Shown here: positions 11,227-23,744 of the stretch, one piece after another
How positions within the stretch are numbered: position 1 is the stretch's first letter
How the letters are laid out: the number at the start of each line of letters is the position of its first letter
DNA from: Halorubrum depositum
Lineage (GTDB): Archaea; Halobacteriota; Halobacteria; Halobacteriales; Haloferacaceae
Length of the DNA stretch: 64,000 nucleotides
Assembly: GCF_007671725.1 (NCBI RefSeq)
Contig: NZ_VCNM01000001.1
Coordinates: 1,178,001-1,242,000, forward strand
Direction: 5' to 3'
Made by a program: the position numbers and the translations under genes
Notes under the pieces: model-generated
Seen by the model: only the letters and a program-made list of their open reading frames with translations
What the model was told of the DNA's origin: nothing
The model's database searches: none

Positions 11227-12516
11227 CTATAGGCTGTCGGCGATATCGTGTGCCCACGCGAGCAGGCTCTCGTCGTCGCCGAACGGCGCGGCACACTGGA
11301 GGCCGAGCGGTAAACCGTCGTCGGTCGTCCCAGCCGGCAGGCCGACGGTCGGCAGTCCGGCGTGCGTCCACGGAAGGTTCATGACGGGGTCGCCTGTGGC
11401 ATCGATTCCCTCAGGGGCCGGGCCGGGAGCCGACGGCGAGATCCAGAGGTCGATCCCTGCATCGTGCATCCGGTCGTGTAGCGCCGCACGGAGTCGGCGG
11501 CGACTCCGACGGGCGGCGGCGACATCGGCGGTCGACACCTCACGTCCCTCTCGGAGGAGTTCGACCGAGGTGTCAGCGTACCCCCCCGGATACTCCCCGT
11601 ACCACTCCTCGTGAGTGAGTGCGAATTCTGCGGCAACGAGGCGATTGTGCCGGGAATTAATGCCGTCGATGTCCTCGAATGCGTCGATCCGCTCAACGTC
11701 GTATCCCGCGCGTTCGAGCCGCGAAACGTGTTCCTCGAAAGATTTCAGTCCGAGATCGCTCGCCTGCCGAAGGTAGGGTCCCTCGGGGACGCCGAGCGTC
11801 GGGCGGTCACGCGGTGCTGGCAGCGGTCGCCACTCGTCACAGAGCAGTGCCGCGCCGACCGCAGCGCCCGCGGTGTCCTGCGTGAAGAACCCGATATGGT
11901 CAACCGAGGGCGTACAGGGAATCACGCCATCGGTGGAAATCCGCCCGAAACTCGGCTTCACCCCGACGATACCACAGAACGCCGCCGGGCGGGTCACCGA
12001 TCCGATAGTCTGCGTGCCGAACGCGAACGGACAGAGCCCGGCTGCGACGGCCGCCGCCGATCCGCTCGACGACCCGCCGGGAGTATGGGCCGGATCGTGC
12101 GGGTTTCGGGTGGGACCGGGTTCGAAGTAAGCGAACTCGGCCGTGACCGTCTTGCCGAGAATCAGCGCTCCCGCCTCGCGGAGGGTCCGCACTGCCGTCG
12201 ACTCCTCGCCGGCCAACGCCTCGGGCGGGACGTCCGACCCCGCCCGAGTCGGCAGTCCGTCGACGTGGAAGATATCCTTCACACCGATGGGAACACCGTA
12301 CAGTGGCGGTCGGGTCGAGGGCTCCGGGAACCGGGATTGGAGGTCTGCTGCAGCCGCCCGGAGTCGACTCCACCGATCCTCCTCAGGGACGAGCGATTCG
12401 ATATTGGGTTCGACCGCGTCGACTCGGGACTCGACGGTATCGAGATACTCGTCGACGCTGACCCGGTCTCGACGCAGGTCGTCTATCGTCGTGGCCAGCG
12501 GTGCGTCGTGAATCAC
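11227..12516 (-). CDS. Amidase-signature family hydrolase
   Basis: 429 aa. The Ser-cisSer-Lys triad is present: Lys80 in IGVKDIF, the Ser149/150 pair in the GGSSSGSAAAVAAG loop, and nucleophile Ser173 in GTQTIGSVTRPAAFCG. The QTIGS form replaces the commoner DTGGS, as in some allophanate-hydrolase-like or other specialised amidases. It hydrolyses a carboxamide to acid and ammonia; the substrate is unknown. Start GTG at 12516 has a weak GGAG upstream. It lies downstream of the creatininase-family gene on the same strand (261-base gap), and both diverge from the peptide-type importer. Confidence 0.9.
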   Translation of the reverse strand: MIHDAPLATTIDDLRRDRVSVDEYLDTVESRVDAVEPNIESLVPEEDRWSRLRAAAADLQSRFPEPSTRPPLYGVPIGVKDIFHVDGLPTRAGSDVPPEALAGEESTAVRTLREAGALILGKTVTAEFAYFEPGPTRNPHDPAHTPGGSSSGSAAAVAAGLCPFAFGTQTIGSVTRPAAFCGIVGVKPSFGRISTDGVIPCTPSVDHIGFFTQDTAGAAVGAALLCDEWRPLPAPRDRPTLGVPEGPYLRQASDLGLKSFEEHVSRLERAGYDVERIDAFEDIDGINSRHNRLVAAEFALTHEEWYGEYPGGYADTSVELLREGREVSTADVAAARRSRRRLRAALHDRMHDAGIDLWISPSAPGPAPEGIDATGDPVMNLPWTHAGLPTVGLPAGTTDDGLPLGLQCAAPFGDDESLLAWAHDIADSL

Positions 12517-12777: not shown

Positions 12778-13581
12778 TCACCCCGCCCGCTCGTGGAGCC
12801 GTTCGAGCACGTCGCCGACCTCGTCGACGAACACCTCGAAGAACCGTTCACCCTTTTCGGCGGTCGCCAGCTCCGGCGTGCCGACCGCACCCGTCTCGCT
12901 GTACGCGTCGAAGTCGGCGTAGGCCGAGAGCGGCCCCGGATGCGAGAGGTCGTCTCGGGTCCGGTCGTAGGGCGACTCCCACGGCGTCCCCTCGGCAGCG
13001 TCCAAGTCGACGAGGTCCGGACGGAGGTGAGCGAGCATCGACGTCTCAACCTCGCCCGCGTGGCCGGCGCCGCCGCGGTCGCTGTCCCGTATCTCGCCGA
13101 TTCGGTCGGCGCCCAGATCGAAGTACGTGACCCCCAGTACCTCCGCCGTCCGGTGAGAGGCGCCGATCGCACTCGTCGCGCTCGAAACGAGTGCGCCGTT
13201 GCCGCCGTGCCCGTTGAGGAGCAGGAGTCCGTCGAAGCCCTCGGCGAGCACCGTCTCCGCCACGCGCTCCAGCAGGTCGAGCAGGTCCCCACCGTCGAGG
13301 CTCACCGTGCCGCCGAATGGCGTGTGGTGTGGGGAGTGGCCGGTCCATATCGGCGGCGTGACGAGCACCGGCATCGCGTCGGCGGCGCGTTCGGCGGCTG
13401 TCGTGGCAACCGCGTCCGCAAGGATGGTATCCGTTGCCGTCGGTAGGTGGTGGCCGTGCTGTTCGAGGCTCCCGACTGGAACGACCGCCACCGAGCCGTC
13501 TCGCTCGGCCGCGTCACGGACCGCCGGATACGGCTTCCCCGCCCACGCGACCGGCGACGCACCGATAGTATCGTACACCAT
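12778..13581 (-). CDS. Creatininase-family amidohydrolase
   Basis: 267 aa. Family landmarks are the metal-binding VGSLEQHGHHLPTATD, the PPIWTGHSPHHTPFGG segment and LLNGHGGNGA, then a Glu in AGEVETS. Members open cyclic amides such as creatinine or act on formamidopyrimidine and mycofactocin precursors, so the exact substrate cannot be told. The start at 13581 (MVYDTIGASPVAWAG) agrees with family length; an in-frame ATG at 13650, with a TATATA at 13669-13674, would add 23 residues and may be the real start of transcription and translation. Neighbouring amidase and importer genes suggest uptake and opening of a cyclic amide or ureide. Confidence 0.88.
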   Translation of the reverse strand: MVYDTIGASPVAWAGKPYPAVRDAAERDGSVAVVPVGSLEQHGHHLPTATDTILADAVATTAAERAADAMPVLVTPPIWTGHSPHHTPFGGTVSLDGGDLLDLLERVAETVLAEGFDGLLLLNGHGGNGALVSSATSAIGASHRTAEVLGVTYFDLGADRIGEIRDSDRGGAGHAGEVETSMLAHLRPDLVDLDAAEGTPWESPYDRTRDDLSHPGPLSAYADFDAYSETGAVGTPELATAEKGERFFEVFVDEVGDVLERLHERAG

Positions 13582-13785
13582 GGAGACCGCCACGGCGGCC
13601 GCGAACAAAACGTTCCGGTCCGTGTCGAGGGTCGGTTCCGACGCCCGCATCGCCACTTACAGACCCATCATATATCTGAACTGAGGGCCGGACATCCCAC
13701 CGCCATCGAGTGACTGAAAACCATCCTAATTGATGGGACCGAACTAAGGACAACACTTTTGACCACCCTTCGAATTAGGGCTGGT

Positions 13786-14736
13786 ATGTCAATGCGTGAC
13801 TTGCTCTCGTCTACCAGCTCCGGACTGGTGGACGCACTAACGGACAACCACATCGTCCGCAACTTCGTCGATGGATTGCGGCTGATGCTCAGCGATCGGA
13901 CGACCGCCGCGTACTTCTGGATACTCGTCGGGATCACGATCCTCGGCGTCGTCGGGCCGATGATCGCCCCCTACGGTATCGAGGTGACACACTACAGCCA
14001 GAGCGGCGAGGTGCTGAGCGCCGAGCCGCCCTCGCTGGCGCACCCCCTCGGGACGACATTTGCGGGCTACGACGTGCTCTCGCGGCTTCTGGTCGGCGCC
14101 CGTCCGACCGTGATCACGGGAGTTCTCGGTGGCGGGCTGATCCTCACCATCGGGACCACAATCGGAATCACCGCCGGCTACGTCGGCGGGCGTACCGAAA
14201 CGATCCTGATGCGTTTCACCGACTTCGCGTACGGCGTGCCGCTCATCCCCTTTGGCATCGTGATGATCACATTTCTCGGGGTCGGATTCCTGTCCTCGAT
14301 TCTCGTCATCGGCTTGATCCTGTGGCGGGGCGGGGCTCGGGTGATCCGCGCCCAGACCCTACAGATCAAGCAGTACCCGTTCATCAAGGTCGCCAAGGCG
14401 ACGGGCGCGAGCAGGCGTCGGATCATCATCAAACACATCCTCCCGAACGTGGCACCGATGGCCATCTTCTTCCTGGCGCTTGGCGTCGGCTACGCCATCA
14501 TGCTCCAGGCCAGCCTCACCTTCCTCGGCGTCGCGTCGCCGTTCACCCCGTCGTGGGGGGTCATGATCCGGAACGCGTTCAACTCCGGGTACATGTCCGA
14601 GGCGTGGTGGTGGTCGCTGACACCGGGGCTCCTGATCGGTATCACGGTGCTCTCGACGTTCATGTTCGGACGGGGATACGAGGATCTCATCACGGCCGAC
14701 GGAGAGTCGATCGAGGCCGACACGGTAGCCGCGTAA
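13786..14736 (+). CDS. Dipeptide/oligopeptide/nickel-type ABC importer permease (DppC-like)
   Basis: 316-aa inner-membrane protein with an N-terminal cytoplasmic stretch, an early helix (YFWILVGITILGVVG), and the BPD permease core carrying the EAA loop KATGASRRRIIIKHILPN that docks the ATPases. The segment AHPLGTTFAGYDVLSRLLVGAR is typical of DppC/OppC. First gene of the operon, followed two bases later by the ATPase gene. The ATG at 13786 is preferred to an earlier in-frame start that would run into the divergent promoter. Confidence 0.92.
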   Translation: MSMRDLLSSTSSGLVDALTDNHIVRNFVDGLRLMLSDRTTAAYFWILVGITILGVVGPMIAPYGIEVTHYSQSGEVLSAEPPSLAHPLGTTFAGYDVLSRLLVGARPTVITGVLGGGLILTIGTTIGITAGYVGGRTETILMRFTDFAYGVPLIPFGIVMITFLGVGFLSSILVIGLILWRGGARVIRAQTLQIKQYPFIKVAKATGASRRRIIIKHILPNVAPMAIFFLALGVGYAIMLQASLTFLGVASPFTPSWGVMIRNAFNSGYMSEAWWWSLTPGLLIGITVLSTFMFGRGYEDLITADGESIEADTVAA

Positions 14737-14738
14737 TC

Positions 14739-15776
14739 ATGTCCGACACACTACTCGAGGTCGAGAACCTCACGATCCGGTACGAGACGGACGGCGGCGA
14801 CATCACCGCGGTGTCCGATGCGTCCTTCAGCATCGACGAGGGCGAGTTCTTCGGCCTCGCCGGCGAGTCCGGCTCCGGTAAGAGCACGACCGCCAAGGCG
14901 ATCATCGGCGGGCTCGACGACAACGGCTTCGTCGACGGCGGGACGGTCCGGTATCGCGGCGAGGAGATCCAGGACTTCAGCGACGCACAGCTCAACGAGA
15001 AGCTCCGGTGGAAGGAGATCTCTTGGATCCCTCAGAGCTCGATGAACAGCCTCGATCCGCTTCAGCGGGTGAGCGAACAGGCCTTGGAGATCGGCCAAGT
15101 CCACACCGACCTCTCCAACGAGGAGATCCGCGAGAAGCTCAAGGAGATGTTCGACGTGGTCGGACTCCAGCAGAGCCGGATCGACGATTATCCCCACCAG
15201 TTCTCCGGCGGGATGCAACAGCGTGCGATCATCGCGCTCGCGCTGTTTCTGGAGCCCAGCCTCGTCATCGCCGACGAGCCGACGACGGCGCTAGACGTGA
15301 TCATGCAGGACCAGATCTTCAAATATCTCGATCGGATGAAAGACGACGCCTCGACGAGCCTCCTGCTCATCACCCACGACATCAGCGTCATCTTCGAGTC
15401 GTGCGACAGCGTGGCGATCATGCACGCGAGTCAGATCGCCGAGCGGGGGTCGGCGGAGTCGGTCCACGACAACCCCCGACACCCCTACGCCTTCATGTTC
15501 AAGGAGGCGTTCCCGGACATCCGCGAGCCGGACCGGGAACTGGAGGTGATCGAGGGCTACCCGCCCGAACTGATCGGCGAGGTATCGGCGTGTAGCTTCG
15601 CCGATCGCTGTCCGTGGGCAGTCGAGGAGTGTCGGAAGAGCGCTCCGCCGCTCGAATCCGTCGGCGACGACGACGCCACCCACGCCGCGTCGTGTTTCCG
15701 CTCCGACGAGGCGTACGAACTGTACGAGGAACACGGCACGGCCGATCCGGCGGCGCCGGAACAGGGGGACGACTGA
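14739..15776 (+). CDS. ABC importer ATPase, DppD/OppD-like
   Basis: 345-aa peripheral ATPase. Walker A GESGSGKS, Q-loop around WIPQSSMNSLDP, signature FSGGMQQR, Walker B LVIADEPTTALD and switch His in LITHD are all intact. The C-terminal oligopeptide/dipeptide domain has CSFADRCPWAVEEC...HAASC, the cysteine set common in this subfamily. It pairs with the next ATPase to power the importer. Start codon two bases after the permease stop. Confidence 0.94.
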   Translation: MSDTLLEVENLTIRYETDGGDITAVSDASFSIDEGEFFGLAGESGSGKSTTAKAIIGGLDDNGFVDGGTVRYRGEEIQDFSDAQLNEKLRWKEISWIPQSSMNSLDPLQRVSEQALEIGQVHTDLSNEEIREKLKEMFDVVGLQQSRIDDYPHQFSGGMQQRAIIALALFLEPSLVIADEPTTALDVIMQDQIFKYLDRMKDDASTSLLLITHDISVIFESCDSVAIMHASQIAERGSAESVHDNPRHPYAFMFKEAFPDIREPDRELEVIEGYPPELIGEVSACSFADRCPWAVEECRKSAPPLESVGDDDATHAASCFRSDEAYELYEEHGTADPAAPEQGDD

Positions 15777-15777
15777 G

Positions 15778-17073
15778 ATGACGACCGAACCACCACTGCT
15801 GGAAATCAACCGACTGGAGAAGCACTTCGAGGAGAACACGAACATCTTCGACGTCCTCATGCGACAGGAGCCGTCGAAGATTCAGGCCGTCGACGGCGTC
15901 TCGTTCACGCTTGAACGGAACGACTCCATCGCCGTCATCGGCGAGAGCGGCTGTGGCAAGACGACGCTGCTGTTGACGCTTATCGGTCTCCACGACATCA
16001 CCGGCGGCGACGTGGTGTACAAGGGAACGCCGATGTCGTCGTTCGACAAGAGCGACTGGAAGGAGTACCGGAGCAACGTTCAGGTGATCTTCCAGGATCC
16101 GTTCAACTCGCTGGACCCGAAGATGACCGTCGAAGAGTCGCTGAAGGAGCCGCTGGAGATTCACGGAATCGGTAACCGGGACGAGCGGGTCCGAGAGGTG
16201 CTCGAGGACGTCGAACTCCGACCGCCGGAGAAGTACCTGCGCCGCAAGCCGATGAACCTGAGCGGCGGCGAGAAACAGCGCGTCGCCATCGGCCGTGCGC
16301 TGGTGCTCGAACCCGACATCATCCTCGCGGACGAACCGGTGTCGATGCTCGACGTGTCGACACAGGCGTCAGTCCTGCGGATGCTGAAGGGGCTCATCGA
16401 CGACTACGACGCGTCGATGATCTACATCTCACACGACCTCTCGACGGTGTCGTACATCTCGGAGGTGGTGAACGTGATGTATCTGGGGCGGATCGTCGAG
16501 TCGGCGGCCACCGACAGACTCCTCGGCGATCCCAAACACCCATACACGAAGGCGCTCGTCTCCGCGATTCCGGTGCCAGATCCCCACTACGGCCGGCCGC
16601 GGACGGAGATGTCCGGCGCGCCGCGCGACCCGATCGATCTGGGGGAGGGTTGCCGGTTCCGCGACCGATGTCCGGAAGTGATCCCTCCCGACGGGCTCGA
16701 CATCGATCAGTCGGCGTACCGGGAGGTGATGGCGTTTCGCGAGGCGCTCGAACGAGACGAACTCCCCCTCGACCGCATCCGGGAGAGCCTCGACGACCCG
16801 GGCGATACGGACGCGTTAACCGCCGCTATCGACGACGAGCACTTCTCGGCCGAGCTGTCTGACGAGAACGCGGCGACGGTCGACGCGGCGCTCGACGACA
16901 TCGCGGCCGGCAAGCCGGACGCCGCCATCGACCGCTTACGCGAGCGCTTCGAGAGCGTCTGTGAGCTCACTCCCGACTCCATCGAGGACGAGTCCGGCTG
17001 GCACGTCGCCTGCCACCAGTACTACGACCACGACCAACGGCACACGGAAGATCATGCAATCACGACAGACTGA
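15778..17073 (+). CDS. ABC importer ATPase, DppF/OppF-like, with extended C-terminus
   Basis: 431 aa, about 80-110 longer than typical DppF. The nucleotide-binding domain is complete: GESGCGKT, QVIFQDPFNSLDP, LSGGEKQR, IILADEPVSMLD, YISHDLS. The C-terminal Cys motif begins normally (CRFRDRCPEV near residue 291) but the last cysteines (VCELTP, HVACHQY) appear only from about residue 394 on, separated by an acidic helical insertion. ATG starts one base after the dppD-like stop. A 111-base gap separates it from the second permease. Confidence 0.92.
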   Translation: MTTEPPLLEINRLEKHFEENTNIFDVLMRQEPSKIQAVDGVSFTLERNDSIAVIGESGCGKTTLLLTLIGLHDITGGDVVYKGTPMSSFDKSDWKEYRSNVQVIFQDPFNSLDPKMTVEESLKEPLEIHGIGNRDERVREVLEDVELRPPEKYLRRKPMNLSGGEKQRVAIGRALVLEPDIILADEPVSMLDVSTQASVLRMLKGLIDDYDASMIYISHDLSTVSYISEVVNVMYLGRIVESAATDRLLGDPKHPYTKALVSAIPVPDPHYGRPRTEMSGAPRDPIDLGEGCRFRDRCPEVIPPDGLDIDQSAYREVMAFREALERDELPLDRIRESLDDPGDTDALTAAIDDEHFSAELSDENAATVDAALDDIAAGKPDAAIDRLRERFESVCELTPDSIEDESGWHVACHQYYDHDQRHTEDHAITTD

Positions 17074-17184: not shown

Positions 17185-18168
17185 GTGTCGTCGATGAAAC
17201 GCTACGTCGCCGTCCGCAGCATCCAGACCGTCTTCACGCTGTGGCTGGTGCTCACCGCCCTGTTCGTGATGTTCCGGTCGATGCCCGGCGACTTCACCGC
17301 CCAGATGGCGGTGGCGGGCGCCAACGAGCAGGCGCTCGCGGCGCTGCGTGCCAAGTGGGGACTCGACCAACCCCTCCACGTCCAGTACTGGCGGTACATT
17401 ACCAACCTCGCGCAGGGCGACCTCGGCGAATCGCCGGTCTACCGCATCCCCGTCTGGGAGTTCGTCAAGATGCGGATCTTCAACACGTTCATTCTCGTCG
17501 CGCCCGCGATGACGTTCACCTACATCCTCGGGGCGCTGATCGGGACCATCGCCGGGAGCAAGCGGGGCAGCCGCCTCGAGAAACTCGGTCTCATCCCGGT
17601 CATCGGTGCGGGATCGTTCCCGGCCTTCTTCATCTCCATCGTCCTGATCGTCGTCTTTGCGAGCTGGCTCAACATCTTCCCGACGTCGGGGATGCTGTCG
17701 GCGGGCGGTAGCGACGCGGGGACGTGGTGGGGGCCGTACGTCACACCCGACTTCGGTATCCACTACGTCCTGCCATTCGTGGCCGTCGTCTGCCGGTATC
17801 TGTTCATCCCCTCGCTGATCATGCGGACGAGCGTCGTCGAGGTGATGGAGCAGGACTACACCGAGTACCACCGCCTGACCGGCCTGCCGCTCCGGAAGCG
17901 GCTCGGCCACGTCGCCAAGCACGCCAGCCTCCCGGTGATCACCATCTACCCGGTCTCGCTGGCCAGGGCGCTCGGCGGTCTCGTGCTGATCGAGACCGTC
18001 TTCAACTGGCCGGGGATCGGATTCACGCTCGTCGAAGCGGTGCTCGGCCGCGACTACCCGACAGTCCAGTTCGTGTTCTTCCTCGTCGCGGCCTTCGTCA
18101 TCACCTCGAACTTCCTGATCGACCTGCTGTACGGCGTGATCGATCCGCGCATCCGCGTCGAGGGGTGA
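17185..18168 (+). CDS. Dipeptide/oligopeptide/nickel-type ABC importer permease (DppB-like)
   Basis: 327-aa six-helix permease. It has the DppB N-terminus (RYVAVRSIQTVFTLWLVLTALFVMFRSMPGD), the family box KWGLDQPLHVQYWRYI and the EAA loop LPLRKRLGHVAKHASLP; ETVFNWPGIGFTLVEAVLGRDYP is near invariant in the family. It forms the heterodimeric channel with the 13786 permease. Here it is last, whereas most operons place DppB before DppC. Confidence 0.93.
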   Translation: MSSMKRYVAVRSIQTVFTLWLVLTALFVMFRSMPGDFTAQMAVAGANEQALAALRAKWGLDQPLHVQYWRYITNLAQGDLGESPVYRIPVWEFVKMRIFNTFILVAPAMTFTYILGALIGTIAGSKRGSRLEKLGLIPVIGAGSFPAFFISIVLIVVFASWLNIFPTSGMLSAGGSDAGTWWGPYVTPDFGIHYVLPFVAVVCRYLFIPSLIMRTSVVEVMEQDYTEYHRLTGLPLRKRLGHVAKHASLPVITIYPVSLARALGGLVLIETVFNWPGIGFTLVEAVLGRDYPTVQFVFFLVAAFVITSNFLIDLLYGVIDPRIRVEG

Positions 18169-18282: not shown

Positions 18283-20085
18283 ATGTCATGCGAGAATGAA
18301 TCGAGTGGCAGCGGCGTGGACCGCCGCTCGGTATTGAAGGCGATCGGGGTTGCAGGCGCGACCGGACTCGCCGGCTGTGGAGATCAGTCGGGCAGCGGTG
18401 GCGGCTCCGGTGGCGACCTCGGCGAACGAGTCTCGACGCTGCAGATGGAGTACTGGTCGGACTACGGCGGATTCACGACCACACAGGAGCAGATGGCGCC
18501 GATCATCTCGAGCAGCGTCGAGGAACTCGGCGTCGGGATGGAGGTCGTCCCGGTGAGCATCACGACACAGCTCTCCCAGATGGCCAACGACGAGAACCGT
18601 GACAACAACATCTCTTTTACGTGGTGGGTGCCCGCAGCCGATCGTCTCGACCCGCAGGAGCTCCTGAACAACATGCGCTTGGACTGGGCCGGCGCCAACG
18701 GACAGAGCAACTACTCCAACTACGCCGACTGCGAGTTCACCGAGCTGCTCCTCGAACAGACGACCGCCGAGACACCGGAGGAACGACAAGAGGGGATGCA
18801 CGAGGCCATCGCCCGCCTGTCAGAGGACTGTGCCATCGGCAACCTCGCTCCGGTCGCCAACATCGGCGCCTACCGCACGGACATGGTCGACATGGGTGGC
18901 GTCGGCAACGGCGGTATCGCCCGCTCGAACGCCGAGTGGGCGTTCAAGTCCCAGACCACGGACGGCGATGACATGGTGGTGGCGATCAACCCGATCGCCA
19001 CCGAGACGTCGAACTGGCTGACCCACTCCGCCTCGATGCCGGAGGCGATGTGGCAGCACATGATCCACTCTCCGATCCACAAGTACAACGAGAACTTCGA
19101 GCTCACGGAGCTGCTCGGCTCGGTCGACGTCGTCAACTCTCAGGAGATCGTCGTCGAACTGTTCGACGACGCGACGTTCACCAACGGCGACCCGGTCACA
19201 TCCGAGGACGTGAAGTTCACCTTCGAGCAGATCCAGCGCGGCGGCGAGGCCGGTGCGTACCCGGGGGCGGCACCGGTTCCCTACGACGCTATCGAAACGC
19301 CCGACGAGCAGACGGTCCGTTTCACCTTCACGGAGCCATACATCCCCTTCGCTCGCACGACGCTGATGCGGTGGGGTATCCTCCACAAGCAGTCCTTCGA
19401 GGAGGCGGGTGCGGTCGAGAACCCGGGTGGCGCCCAGTTCGAGATGCCTATCGTCTCTTCGGGACCGCTCGAGGTGACCGAACTCCAGCGCGGGACGCGG
19501 GTAGTCACAGAACCGCACGACGGCCACCCGACCTACGAGGCAAGCCAGCCGATCATCTTCGAGGCCTACCGTAACGAGGAGACGATGATCACCGCCCTCG
19601 AGGCCGGCGAGTGTATGATCACACCGGAGATATCGCCGCCGAACGCGGAGCGCGTCAACAACGAGATCGACAACGCCCAAGCGGAGTTCGCGGCCACGCA
19701 CACGTCTTACAACCTCCAGTACGTCTGTCACACCGCGCCGTGTAAGTTCCCCGAGTTCCGCAAGGCGGTCGACGCCTCGATGAACCGCCAGCAGATGATC
19801 GGCGTGGCGCTGGCCGGCGAGGTCGAACCCGAGATGTACCCGACGTACATCTCGAAGAACCACCCGATGTACCCGCCCGAGGACATGCTGTCCGGGTGGG
19901 CCGAGTCGCCACAGGGCAGCCCGGACGTGGCCCGGCAGATGCTCGAAGACGCCGGCTGGGGCTGGGACGGTAACGACAACCTCCACTACCCGCCGGACGC
20001 CGACCTCGACCCGCTGTGGCCACAAGGCGAGGTGCCTTCGGCCGAGGACTTCCCCTGCATCGAAGAACTGGGTCTCGATCCGTAG
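18283..20085 (+). CDS. Family-5 substrate-binding lipoprotein with permuted lobe order
   Basis: 600 aa. The N-terminus is a Tat lipoprotein signal (DRRSVLKAIG...LAGC, lipid Cys32) followed by a Gly/Ser linker, so it is anchored outside the membrane and feeds the importer encoded upstream. Residues about 53-205 carry features normally found in the C-terminal third of DppA/OppA proteins: RLDPQELL near 121, NYADCEFTELLLEQ near 147, TPEERQEGMHEAIARLSED. Residues about 231-580 carry the usual N-terminal two thirds in order: MVVAINP, FTNGDPVTSEDVKFTFEQI near 299, FRKAVDASMNRQQMI near 492, ARQMLEDAGWGW near 552. The protein stops just where the C-lobe would normally begin. A circular permutation is the simplest reading. 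Confidence 0.9.
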   Translation: MSCENESSGSGVDRRSVLKAIGVAGATGLAGCGDQSGSGGGSGGDLGERVSTLQMEYWSDYGGFTTTQEQMAPIISSSVEELGVGMEVVPVSITTQLSQMANDENRDNNISFTWWVPAADRLDPQELLNNMRLDWAGANGQSNYSNYADCEFTELLLEQTTAETPEERQEGMHEAIARLSEDCAIGNLAPVANIGAYRTDMVDMGGVGNGGIARSNAEWAFKSQTTDGDDMVVAINPIATETSNWLTHSASMPEAMWQHMIHSPIHKYNENFELTELLGSVDVVNSQEIVVELFDDATFTNGDPVTSEDVKFTFEQIQRGGEAGAYPGAAPVPYDAIETPDEQTVRFTFTEPYIPFARTTLMRWGILHKQSFEEAGAVENPGGAQFEMPIVSSGPLEVTELQRGTRVVTEPHDGHPTYEASQPIIFEAYRNEETMITALEAGECMITPEISPPNAERVNNEIDNAQAEFAATHTSYNLQYVCHTAPCKFPEFRKAVDASMNRQQMIGVALAGEVEPEMYPTYISKNHPMYPPEDMLSGWAESPQGSPDVARQMLEDAGWGWDGNDNLHYPPDADLDPLWPQGEVPSAEDFPCIEELGLDP

Positions 20086-20214: not shown

Positions 20215-21720
20215 ATGCGAAGACTCACCGTGGACGAACTGGTGGCGCTCGGTGACCGCTTCGAGATCGACGTTGACGATGATCGCGCGGCCAGCATCAC
20301 CGAGACGGTCAACGCGATGCTCGCGGATCTCGACGCGCTCGAGGAGATACCCGTCGGCGGCGACGCGCCGGCGCCAACGGGCGCCGATCCCGGCGCGCGA
20401 ACCTGGACGGACCCGGCCGAGAATCCCCACGGTGCGGTCGCGGTCGGCTGCTCGGTACCCCCGTCATCGAAGGGGTCTCTCGACGGCACTCGCGTCGGAG
20501 TGAAAGACGTGATCGCCGTCGCCGGCGTCCCGATGCGCTGTGGCTCGGCGACTATGCGGGGGTTCGTCCCCTCCCGCGACGCGACCGTCGTCGACCGGCT
20601 TCGCGCGGCCGGCGCGTCGATCACCGCCAAGACCGCCTGCGACGAGTTCGCGGGGAGCGCCCGCGGAACGACCGGCCACGGGGCGCCGATCACCAACCCC
20701 CACGACGACGAACGGACGGCCGGCGGCTCCTCCGGGGGGAGCGCGGCGGCGGTCGCGGCCGGTAGCGTCGACGCCGCGCTCGGTACCGACACCGGTGGCT
20801 CCGTGCGCATCCCCGCGTCGTTCTGTGGCGTCGTCGGCTACAAGCCGACCTACGGGCTCGTGCCGCTGACCGGTGTCATCGAGAACACCTACACCCAAGA
20901 CCACGTCGGGACGCTCACCGATACCGTCGCCGACGCGGCGGCACTTCTCGGGGCGATGGCGGGCGCCGACGACACCGACCCGGCGAGCCTGGCTGCGGCC
21001 GGGCGGTCGGGGTACCGCGTCGGGGGCTACCGCGACGCGGTCGCCTCGTCATCCGATCCCTCGGATCTCCGGATCGGCGTTCTCGACGAGGGGACGGGCG
21101 AGGGCGTCGCGGACCGCGTCGAGAGGCGCACCGAGGCCGCCGTCGACGTCCTCGACGACGCGGGCGTGACGGTCCGGTCGGTCTCAGTCGACACCTTCCA
21201 CGACGCCCGTCCGATCAAGAACGCTCTGAGTTTCGTCGAGCTCGCCACCCACTGGCGAGACGGCGCCGCTCCGTACCGCCGCGGCGGCGTCGACGAGACG
21301 CTCCAGACCGGCTTCGCCCGCGCCCGCGCCGCGGCCAGCGGCGAGCTGAGCGATTTCTACACGAGCAAGCTGCTCGCCGGCGCGCGGGTCGTCGAGGCCC
21401 ACGACGGCCGGCCGTACGTCCGCGCCCAGACCGCCAGAGAGCGGCTCCGCGAGGCGTTCGAGGCGGCACTCGACGACGTCGACGCCCTCCTCCTGCCGAC
21501 GATGCCGGACGTGGCGCCGCCGGTCGACGGCGCCGACGACTGGGCATACGATTACGCGCGCAACACGCGGGCGGCGAACGTCACCCGGCTCCCCGCGGTA
21601 ACGGTGCCGAACGGTACCGCCTCGGGGCTGCCGGTCGGCCTCCAATTGGTTGGTCCGGCGTTCCACGACGCCGACCTCCTCGCGACGGCGGCCGCCGTCA
21701 CGTCGGTGCTTCCGGCCTGA
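20215..21720 (+). CDS. Amidase-signature family hydrolase (second copy type)
   Basis: 501 aa with the canonical triad: Lys97 in RVGVKDVI, Ser172/173 in GGSSGGSAAAVAAG and nucleophile Ser196 in LGTDTGGSVRIPASFCG. N-terminal 60 residues are an acidic helical lead-in. It is only distantly similar to the 11227 amidase, whose nucleophile loop is QTIGS, so the two probably take different substrates. Overall shape resembles GatA/AtzF-like amidases, but there is no GatB or GatC partner. It lies between the binding protein and the thioredoxin-like and M20 genes on the same strand, supporting a role in the same amide or ureide route. Confidence 0.92.
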   Translation: MRRLTVDELVALGDRFEIDVDDDRAASITETVNAMLADLDALEEIPVGGDAPAPTGADPGARTWTDPAENPHGAVAVGCSVPPSSKGSLDGTRVGVKDVIAVAGVPMRCGSATMRGFVPSRDATVVDRLRAAGASITAKTACDEFAGSARGTTGHGAPITNPHDDERTAGGSSGGSAAAVAAGSVDAALGTDTGGSVRIPASFCGVVGYKPTYGLVPLTGVIENTYTQDHVGTLTDTVADAAALLGAMAGADDTDPASLAAAGRSGYRVGGYRDAVASSSDPSDLRIGVLDEGTGEGVADRVERRTEAAVDVLDDAGVTVRSVSVDTFHDARPIKNALSFVELATHWRDGAAPYRRGGVDETLQTGFARARAAASGELSDFYTSKLLAGARVVEAHDGRPYVRAQTARERLREAFEAALDDVDALLLPTMPDVAPPVDGADDWAYDYARNTRAANVTRLPAVTVPNGTASGLPVGLQLVGPAFHDADLLATAAAVTSVLPA

Positions 21721-21738: not shown

Positions 21739-21759
21739 TTCGAGATGGCAGATAACGGT

Positions 21760-22455
21760 ATGTCTGCGATCGACGCCGTCGACCGACTCATCGAGCGCGA
21801 CGTATTCGAGGCGGCCGGTGATGACGAGTTACGCCCGACCGAATCGTTCCGGGCGGCGGTCGACCGCCACCGGCGGACGCTGACCGACCGCGACGCCGAC
21901 GAGCGGTCCGCGGCCGTCGCGGAGCTGACCGACGACCCCGATGTCGCGGATACGTTCGCGGCGGCGGACGTCTCGGATCTCGACTTCCTCGCGCGGTACG
22001 TCGCGCTCCGAAATCGGGCCGCCGACCTCTCGGCGGCGCAGGCGCTCACGCTCACGGTCGTGATCGGACAGCTCGAAACCGGTATGCCTCGCTCGGACGG
22101 CGCACCGGCGGCCTTCCTCCCCGTCGACGGCGAGGACCTCGTGCGGCTCGTCCGGCTTCACGACCGCTGTGTCGTCTACGCCTGGCGCGAGGACTGCCCG
22201 CCCTGCGAGACGATCAAGGCAGACTTCGACGACCTGTTCGGCGCCGACCCACCGGGCGACCTGCTCTTGCTCGCGGTGTACGGTCCGGACTGCCCTCGAC
22301 TCCTAGACCGGGAGTTCGACGCGAATGCAGCGCCGACGATGCTGTTCACTCTCGACGGGCGCGTCGATTCGCGGTTTGTCGGGACGCCGTCGGCCGAGGG
22401 GCTCGAAAGCGAAATAGAGACGCTCCGCGATCGGACGGTCCCGTCGGCAGAGTGA
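21760..22455 (+). CDS. Thioredoxin-fold protein with CPPC motif
   Basis: 231 aa, predicted cytoplasmic. The N-terminal 105 residues are an acidic helical region with no family I recognise (VDRLIERDVFEAAG...AVDRHRRTL). The C-terminal half is a thioredoxin fold: VVYAWREDCPPCETIKADFDDLF contains the redox pair CPPC in place of CGPC, followed by APTMLFTLDGR, the cis-Pro loop. It probably acts as a dedicated disulfide reductant or redox sensor for this cluster; that is inference from position. Confidence 0.8.
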   Translation: MSAIDAVDRLIERDVFEAAGDDELRPTESFRAAVDRHRRTLTDRDADERSAAVAELTDDPDVADTFAAADVSDLDFLARYVALRNRAADLSAAQALTLTVVIGQLETGMPRSDGAPAAFLPVDGEDLVRLVRLHDRCVVYAWREDCPPCETIKADFDDLFGADPPGDLLLLAVYGPDCPRLLDREFDANAAPTMLFTLDGRVDSRFVGTPSAEGLESEIETLRDRTVPSAE

Positions 22456-22502: not shown

Positions 22503-23744
22503 ATGCGTATCGACATCGACCGCGATCGACTCGTCGAGACGATGGAAGACCAGGCGGAGATCGGCGGAACGGAGGGCGGCGGGCTCCACCGCCTCGCGCT
22601 CTCCGACACCGACCGCGAGGTGCGTGACTGGTTCGTCGACCGTGCTGCGGACGCCGGGCTGGACGTCCGCGTCGACGCCTTCGGCAACACCTTCGCCCGT
22701 CGGGAAGGTGCCGATCCCGACGCCGAACCGCTGCTCGTGGGTTCGCACCTCGACTCCCAGCCGTACGGCGGTATCTACGACGGTGCACTCGGCGTCGTGG
22801 CGGCCCTGGAGTTCGTCCGCACGCTGAACGACCGGGCGATCGAGACTCGCCGACCGGTCGAGGTGGTCAACTGGACCAACGAGGAGGGGTCCCGGTTCCC
22901 GCCCGCGATGCAGGGCAGCGGCGTCTGGGCAGGCGCTCACGACATCGAGGCCGAGTACGAGAAGACCGACGCCGACGGTACTCGTCTGCTCGACGAACTC
23001 GAACGCATCGGTTACCACGGAGACGAGCCGGCCGAGCCGCGCGAGCCGTACCACGCGTATCTCGAACTCCATCCCGAACAGGGACCGTTTCTGGAGGAAA
23101 CCGGGGCCGACGTGGGGATCGTCACCGGCATCGTCGGCCTCCGGTGGGCGGACATCACGCTCCACGGGCAGGCCAATCACACCGGGACGACGCCGATGAA
23201 CTACCGGGAGGACGCACTCGTTGCGGCCTCCGACATCGTCACTGCGATCCGGCGCCTGCCGGGGACGCTCGGCGACCGAACCGTCGCGACGGTCGGGTCG
23301 CTGACCGTCCAGCCTAACTCGGTCAATACCGTCCCCGAGACGGTGACGCTCACGACCGACATCCGCGACCCGGACGAGGCCGTCCTCGACGAGGGCGTCG
23401 CGCGGATGGAGGCGGAGGTGGCCGCGGCGGCCGACCGCGAGGGCATCGAGTACGAGATCGAGCACACGATGGCCTCGCCCACGGTCGACTTCCCCGACCG
23501 GCCGGTCGAGGCCGTTGCGGACGCCGTCGACCACCTCGGCTACGATGGCCGCCGGATGGTCAGCGGTGCCGGTCACGACGCTACCCACGCCGCCGCCGTC
23601 TGCGGCGCCGCGATGGTTTTCTCGGTCAGTGAGGGCGGCAAGAGCCACACGGAAGACGAGTTCACTAGCTGGCCGGACTGCTACCGATCGTCGAACGTGC
23701 TTGCGAACGCGGCGCTAGACCTGGCCGAGCCGATCGTCGACTGA
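22503..23744 (+). CDS. Zn-dependent N-carbamoyl-L-amino-acid hydrolase / ureidase (M20)
   Basis: 413 aa, the usual length of the HyuC / allantoate amidohydrolase / beta-ureidopropionase group, which releases the carbamoyl group from N-carbamoyl amino acids as CO2 and ammonia. The dinuclear metal ligands are all present: His82 (GSHLDSQ), Asp93 (GGIYDGALG), Glu127/128 (TNEEGSRF), His190 (ELHPEQGP) and His358 (SGAGHDA). The dimerisation insert has ANHTGTTPM with the substrate-contacting His. Which N-carbamoyl compound is used cannot be told from sequence. Confidence 0.92.
   Translation: MRIDIDRDRLVETMEDQAEIGGTEGGGLHRLALSDTDREVRDWFVDRAADAGLDVRVDAFGNTFARREGADPDAEPLLVGSHLDSQPYGGIYDGALGVVAALEFVRTLNDRAIETRRPVEVVNWTNEEGSRFPPAMQGSGVWAGAHDIEAEYEKTDADGTRLLDELERIGYHGDEPAEPREPYHAYLELHPEQGPFLEETGADVGIVTGIVGLRWADITLHGQANHTGTTPMNYREDALVAASDIVTAIRRLPGTLGDRTVATVGSLTVQPNSVNTVPETVTLTTDIRDPDEAVLDEGVARMEAEVAAAADREGIEYEIEHTMASPTVDFPDRPVEAVADAVDHLGYDGRRMVSGAGHDATHAAAVCGAAMVFSVSEGGKSHTEDEFTSWPDCYRSSNVLANAALDLAEPIVD

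Follow-up and report, generated by a model that had tools for sequence, protein, structure and literature searches.

How a family-5 substrate-binding protein can carry, directly behind its lipid anchor, the motifs that normally close the chain, and only afterwards those that normally open it, is the question raised by the gene at 18283–20085 (plus strand) of the window, i.e., the whole 64,000-nucleotide stretch of Halorubrum depositum DNA that was analysed. Circular permutation is usually regarded as rare. The open frame comprises 600 amino acids followed by a stop codon, and profile matches and a rotation test (see below) assign it to a circularly permuted family-5 substrate-binding lipoprotein; the motifs quoted in the initial annotation are all found where it had placed them, namely RLDPQELL at residues ~121–128, NYADCEFTELLLEQ at ~146–159, TPEERQEGMHEAIARLSED at ~164–182, VAINP at ~233–237, FTNGDPVTSEDVKFTF at ~299–314, and ARQMLEDAGW at ~550–559. 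The canonical chain order of the family, I-II-I-III-I, is not the one observed here, the chain being rotated and cut in domain III; since the protein belongs to family 5 by sequence and departs from the canonical layout by order, it is named a permuted variant.

The features of the chain, all on the plus strand, can be followed from one end to the other. Residues 1–32 (18283–18378) form a Tat signal with a lipobox, as read from the sequence (RR at 14–15, LAGC ending at Cys 32), and the N-terminus thus displays both the twin arginine and the lipobox cysteine of a haloarchaeal Tat lipoprotein; the TAT_signal match to residues 12–31 is weak, the Pfam and TIGR TAT models scoring below their cut-offs, and Cys 32, lipid-anchored by sequence, is kept in 26 of 28 relatives. 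A Gly/Ser/Asp-rich linker follows (residues 33–47; 18379–18423), as delimited by the alignment of the 28-sequence window family, and leads into residues 48–205 (18424–18897), which correspond to canonical positions ~340–470, i.e., to the usual end of a canonical protein, and form the second part of the C-lobe, or domain III. The stretch in which the former C-terminus runs into the former N-terminus (residues ~206–225; 18898–18957), located by the canonical profile, the junction comparison, and the rotation test, is followed by domains I and II, i.e., the N-lobe (residues 226 to ~479; 18958–19719), equivalent to canonical positions 5 to ~262 and therefore to the usual start of the protein, and by the first part of the C-lobe (residues ~480–566; 19720–19980), ending in the helix ARQMLEDAGW with the permutation point next to it. 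A new conserved tail (residues 567–600, ..NLHYPPDADLDPLWPQGEVPSAEDFPC..; 19981–20082), recognized in the family alignment and showing low dN/dS, completes the chain.

The position of the cut is given by the alignment to E. coli DppA, in which residues 270–563 of the query correspond to DppA 35–340 and residues 78–205 to DppA 364–486. Domain III of OppA comprises residues 270–486 (PMC6305025), and these limits put both new ends of the chain within domain III, between DppA 340 and 364; according to the alignments, they separate the helix ARQMLEDAGW from the strand following it, STLQMEYW. Two statements of the initial annotation have to be revised on this account: the protein does not end just before the start of the C-lobe, as residues ~480–566 are the first part of that lobe and residues ~48–205 the rest, and the lobes are not swapped in order, the C-lobe being instead split between both ends of the chain. 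The lipid anchor is followed here by the C-lobe and not, as in canonical proteins, by the N-lobe.

The rotated order emerges from several profiles. The Pfam model SBP_bac_5 (PF00496), which is matched by all 28 aligned relatives of the window family, covers residues 288–566 with its positions 18–285 of 368 (E 8e-38; 131 bits, with the cut-off at 32.4), while the SapA profile aligns residues 64–203 to its C-terminal part, positions 389–522 of 547 (E 3e-7). When a reference profile of 487 positions was derived from 97 canonical haloarchaeal family-5 proteins, residues 66–204 matched positions 340–470 (E 9e-15) and residues 223–572 matched positions 5–338 (E 1e-43); the segments of domains I, II, and III are complete, with no gap in content between the two pieces, and this two-piece match is, as judged from the profile, far beyond chance and essentially complete. 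When the window family (28 sequences) was aligned, profile to profile, with the 97 canonical proteins, the native chain yielded two blocks in swapped order, scoring 389 and 105; rotated at residue 226 it gave a single continuous block of 457 columns with a score of 481 (493 without the new tail). Control rotations at 150, 300, 350, 450, and 568 reached best scores of 428, 386, 300, 276, and 388, and a second, out-of-order block always remained. The de-permuted profile is also colinear with 5isu. Because nothing is missing and a single block appears after rotation, the protein is interpreted, with high confidence, as a natural circular permutation of an OppA/DppA-type binding protein; the corresponding proposal of the initial annotation is borne out by the rotation test, by full-length relatives sharing this specific order in haloarchaea down to ~30% identity, and by a sister subfamily in Alphaproteobacteria.

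Compared with the known members of cluster C (PF00496: DppA, OppA, AppA, Lmo0135), the window protein is alike in all sequence blocks, in the importer type, and in export as a lipoprotein; it differs from them in being rotated, with new termini in domain III, and in its extra C-terminal tail carrying one cysteine of a pair. No chain among solved structures was found to align in the permuted order, and no permuted cluster C protein was found described in the open-licence literature, where Tp0684 (MglB-2) of Treponema pallidum and its relatives, named type Ic or cluster Bc (PMC4990184), is the sole natural class of permuted ABC binding proteins found. The authors of that study suggested a link between permutation and tethering to the membrane, the permuted form being kept across the whole subfamily (PMC4990184). 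Both Tp0684 and the window protein are natural, membrane-tethered, and permuted subfamily-wide; however, Tp0684 belongs to the unrelated, sugar-binding cluster B, has N-lobe strands moved to the end, and represents one known class, whereas here cluster C is concerned, with several independent events and different cuts, and every significant match of the window protein is to family 5. It is also known from engineered permuted halves of periplasmic binding proteins and from domain-inserted biosensors that binding-protein folds tolerate new termini (PMC9815098, PMC6335823); unlike the window protein, these constructs are artificial and belong to other fold clusters.

The gene stands beside an importer of the Opp/Dpp type, composed of two BPD_transp_1 permeases (13759–14736 and, with its N-terminal domain, 17185–18168) and two ATPases carrying ABC_tran and oligo_HPY domains (14733–15776, start inferred, and 15778–17073), all on the plus strand and regarded as cognate; such a permease/ATPase cassette lies near the permuted gene in 25 of 26 loci of relatives. 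The importer is flanked by two amidases, a creatininase-family protein, and an M20-family amidohydrolase: 11227–12516 and 12778–13656 on the minus strand, the amidase adjoining the importer at 20215–21720, and the M20 protein at 22503–23744, the last two on the plus strand and serving as clues to the substrate. The window protein is most likely the high-affinity receptor of the adjacent importer, and the genes around it would probably form a cluster for the breakdown of a compound of amide, ureido, or creatinine-like type; given these neighbours, transport of such a small compound appears a better guess than that of a peptide. Between the last two genes lies a thioredoxin-like protein (21745–22455, plus strand; CPPC motif, no Pfam match), frequent in the cassette.

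The most likely route to this arrangement would be an ancient tandem duplication with in-frame gene fusion, after which the outer parts were lost: a short linker (~residues 206–225) would join the old C- and N-termini, new termini would open in a C-lobe loop that connects a helix to the strand after it, and the new chain would run from the second C-lobe part through the whole N-lobe to the first C-lobe part. Tandem binding-protein genes do exist (L023/L033), and in another archaeal lineage a 949-aa frame (L215) consists of two complete canonical family-5 units fused in-frame in tandem; this protein, which is not a direct ancestor of the window protein, would fit the intermediate predicted by permutation via duplication. 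The junctions between the old termini are short and similar, mostly 13–30 aa; in L037, L048, and L059 they are long and Gly/Asp/Thr-rich, like the post-lipobox linker of canonical proteins, and are perhaps a relic of the leader of the second copy. The two lobes, the hinge, and the ligand cleft would be retained; a structure prediction from a shallow alignment of seven rows gave a pLDDT of 34, and a scan of viral contigs for further family rows found none. Haloarchaeal binding proteins carry Tat signals, and the export of folded protein may render permutations harmless.

The new, short tail, probably secured by a disulfide, would hold the split lobe together. Cys150, in the second C-lobe part (18730–18732, plus strand), and Cys592, in the tail (20056–20058, plus strand), occur together in 23 of the 28 window-subfamily proteins and are both missing from the other 5, a co-occurrence on which their predicted pairing rests; the five proteins devoid of the pair form one clade, and the two cysteines may thus have been lost together just once. 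The predicted bond would link the new C-terminal end with the part of the C-lobe that now opens the chain. The idea that the thioredoxin-like gene serves this pair found no support, the gene being present in all 7 loci lacking both cysteines. The cut lies inside a domain and sequence cannot tell intramolecular from intermolecular pairing, and the halves of the C-lobe might accordingly be exchanged between two molecules, with Cys150 and Cys592 linking the chains of a domain-swapped dimer; we consider this improbable, since the short and similar junctions are those expected when neighbouring termini are joined in one chain, and a dimer would have to be accommodated at the importer's one receptor site.

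The permutation of the window protein is one of several within family 5, not a local oddity. A total of 187 family-5 frames were typed by how much sequence precedes and follows the N-lobe block, and fell into canonical proteins, type A (the cut of the window protein), and intermediates, the frames sampled beyond this genome having been partly picked for permuted forms, which limits the type counts. Type B is cut at canonical ~427/429 (L090, L092, L162), type C at ~401/408 (L080, L091, L154), and type D at ~69 (L176), with the first strands shifted to the end; L187 (from genome G029) was permuted independently, with a cut close to that of type B. The end pieces of L187 are too diverged for the profile and L094, L102, and L110 have overlapping ranges, and these four were typed by inspection. 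All 20 loci fetched for a Pfam match ending at 279–288 show the layout of type A. In 80 genomes of non-halobacterial Halobacteriota, nearly all matches span the full canonical Pfam range, L229 being canonical and L230 (G323; a 789-aa frame) a permuted exception, which by inspection starts near canonical ~200 and matches positions 258–393 and then, weakly, 21–123. Starting mid-domain and ending with the N-lobe and a probable PGF-CTERM-type C-terminal anchor, L230 has another cut site and the opposite tether. Among the proteins so typed, L176, L182, L154, and L162 come from incomplete assemblies, and L080, L090, L091, L092, and L184 from single-contig genomes.

In the trees, permuted proteins are scattered at several places among canonical ones. 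One permutation could in principle be ancestral to all of type A, or to all permuted proteins, their canonical tree neighbours being misplaced or reverted; indeed, most type-A proteins, including that of the window, can group, and the large type-A group, which unites the window family with the second subfamily and with the proteins from Alphaproteobacteria (see below), is compatible with one event (branch support 76). AU tests on groups that were named after the trees had been seen, and whose p-values are therefore somewhat optimistic, reject a single clade of all type A (p 8e-12), L095/L098/L170 with L177/L184 as one clade (p 9e-5), the same proteins together with L182 (p 1e-44), and a grouping of types B and C plus L187 (p 1e-69); the rejection is weaker for type B taken by itself (p 0.02). 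A common origin of every permuted protein is rejected by these tests, and the cut sites differ between types; a single ancestral event is thus very unlikely. The events counted are the large type-A group, L182, L095/L098/L170, L177/L184, L090/L092, L162 (weaker), type C, type D, L187, and L230, and permutation would have arisen separately in family 5 about eight times firmly and up to ten times, at no fewer than five cut sites. Within the open-licence literature, such recurrence appears to be unreported.

The window subfamily itself is conserved well beyond this locus. Colinear full-length relatives with 82–73% identity occur in a Haloferacaceae isolate and in Halorubrum species; at E <= 1e-60, relatives ranging from 93 down to ~30% identity are present in 24 of the 293 genomes of the order, spread over 15 of 87 genera, and permuted relatives are also carried by ten haloarchaeal plasmids. 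A second, divergent permuted subfamily is represented by two copies in the same genome, in which 3 of 6 family-5 proteins are permuted, and occurs in 18 of the 197 genomes sampled from the phylum; some of its members join the old termini through long linkers rich in Gly/Asp/Thr, and its members L037 and L038 lie on contig C3, a frame for a PAP2-like membrane protein following L037. A query with the third subfamily returned single-piece, full-length matches in Alphaproteobacteria (Nitratireductor, Microvirga, Maritalea, Neorhizobium, Ketogulonicigenium, and Roseomonas), and the six proteins that were read are permuted at the same site as the window protein; the annotated cases sit in importer operons with permeases and ATPases, some with genes for hydantoinase/oxoprolinase and M20 peptidase. 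L226 of Nitratireductor kimnyeongensis, retrieved by the permuted query, is canonical. Between close relatives dN/dS is ~0.1–0.3 in both halves and in the tail, and the window subfamily is under purifying selection. On scaffold KI543170.1, the permuted protein L007 (8001–9017) breaks off after residue ~348, the frame continuing into other sequence, which points to either an assembly gap or a truncated gene.

Against this background, two further readings can be dismissed. That a canonical binding protein merely acquired an unrelated extra N-terminal domain, as the one stretch (288–566) returned by a single-profile Pfam search might suggest, is scarcely credible and refuted by the canonical profile pieces and the rotation test, the supposed extra (residues 66–204) being exactly the missing part of the canonical C-lobe (positions 340–470) in a protein that ends at canonical ~338, and rotation giving a continuous alignment. 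An assembly error, a frame fusion, or a decaying gene left by two tandem genes, for which both the tandem pair and the in-frame fusion noted above provide precedents, is equally implausible, and artefact and dead gene alike are rejected for the family by the recurrence of this order across numerous independent assemblies, including those of complete genomes and of named isolates, by the low dN/dS in all parts, and by the intact signal, lipobox, and operon.

Recurrent circular permutation has practical and biological consequences for family 5. In databases the permuted proteins are labelled like any other binding protein, and models bound to one order, Pfam among them, detect only part of them; automatic screens need two checks, for diverged end pieces, as in L187, and for canonical proteins retrieved by a permuted query, as in L226. 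More generally, one large family holds many separate permutations beside canonical sisters, near enough for a direct comparison of ancestor-like and permuted forms, and this makes testable how permutations originate (by tandem duplication), which fold and export route tolerate them, and how important the position of the tether is for the importer.
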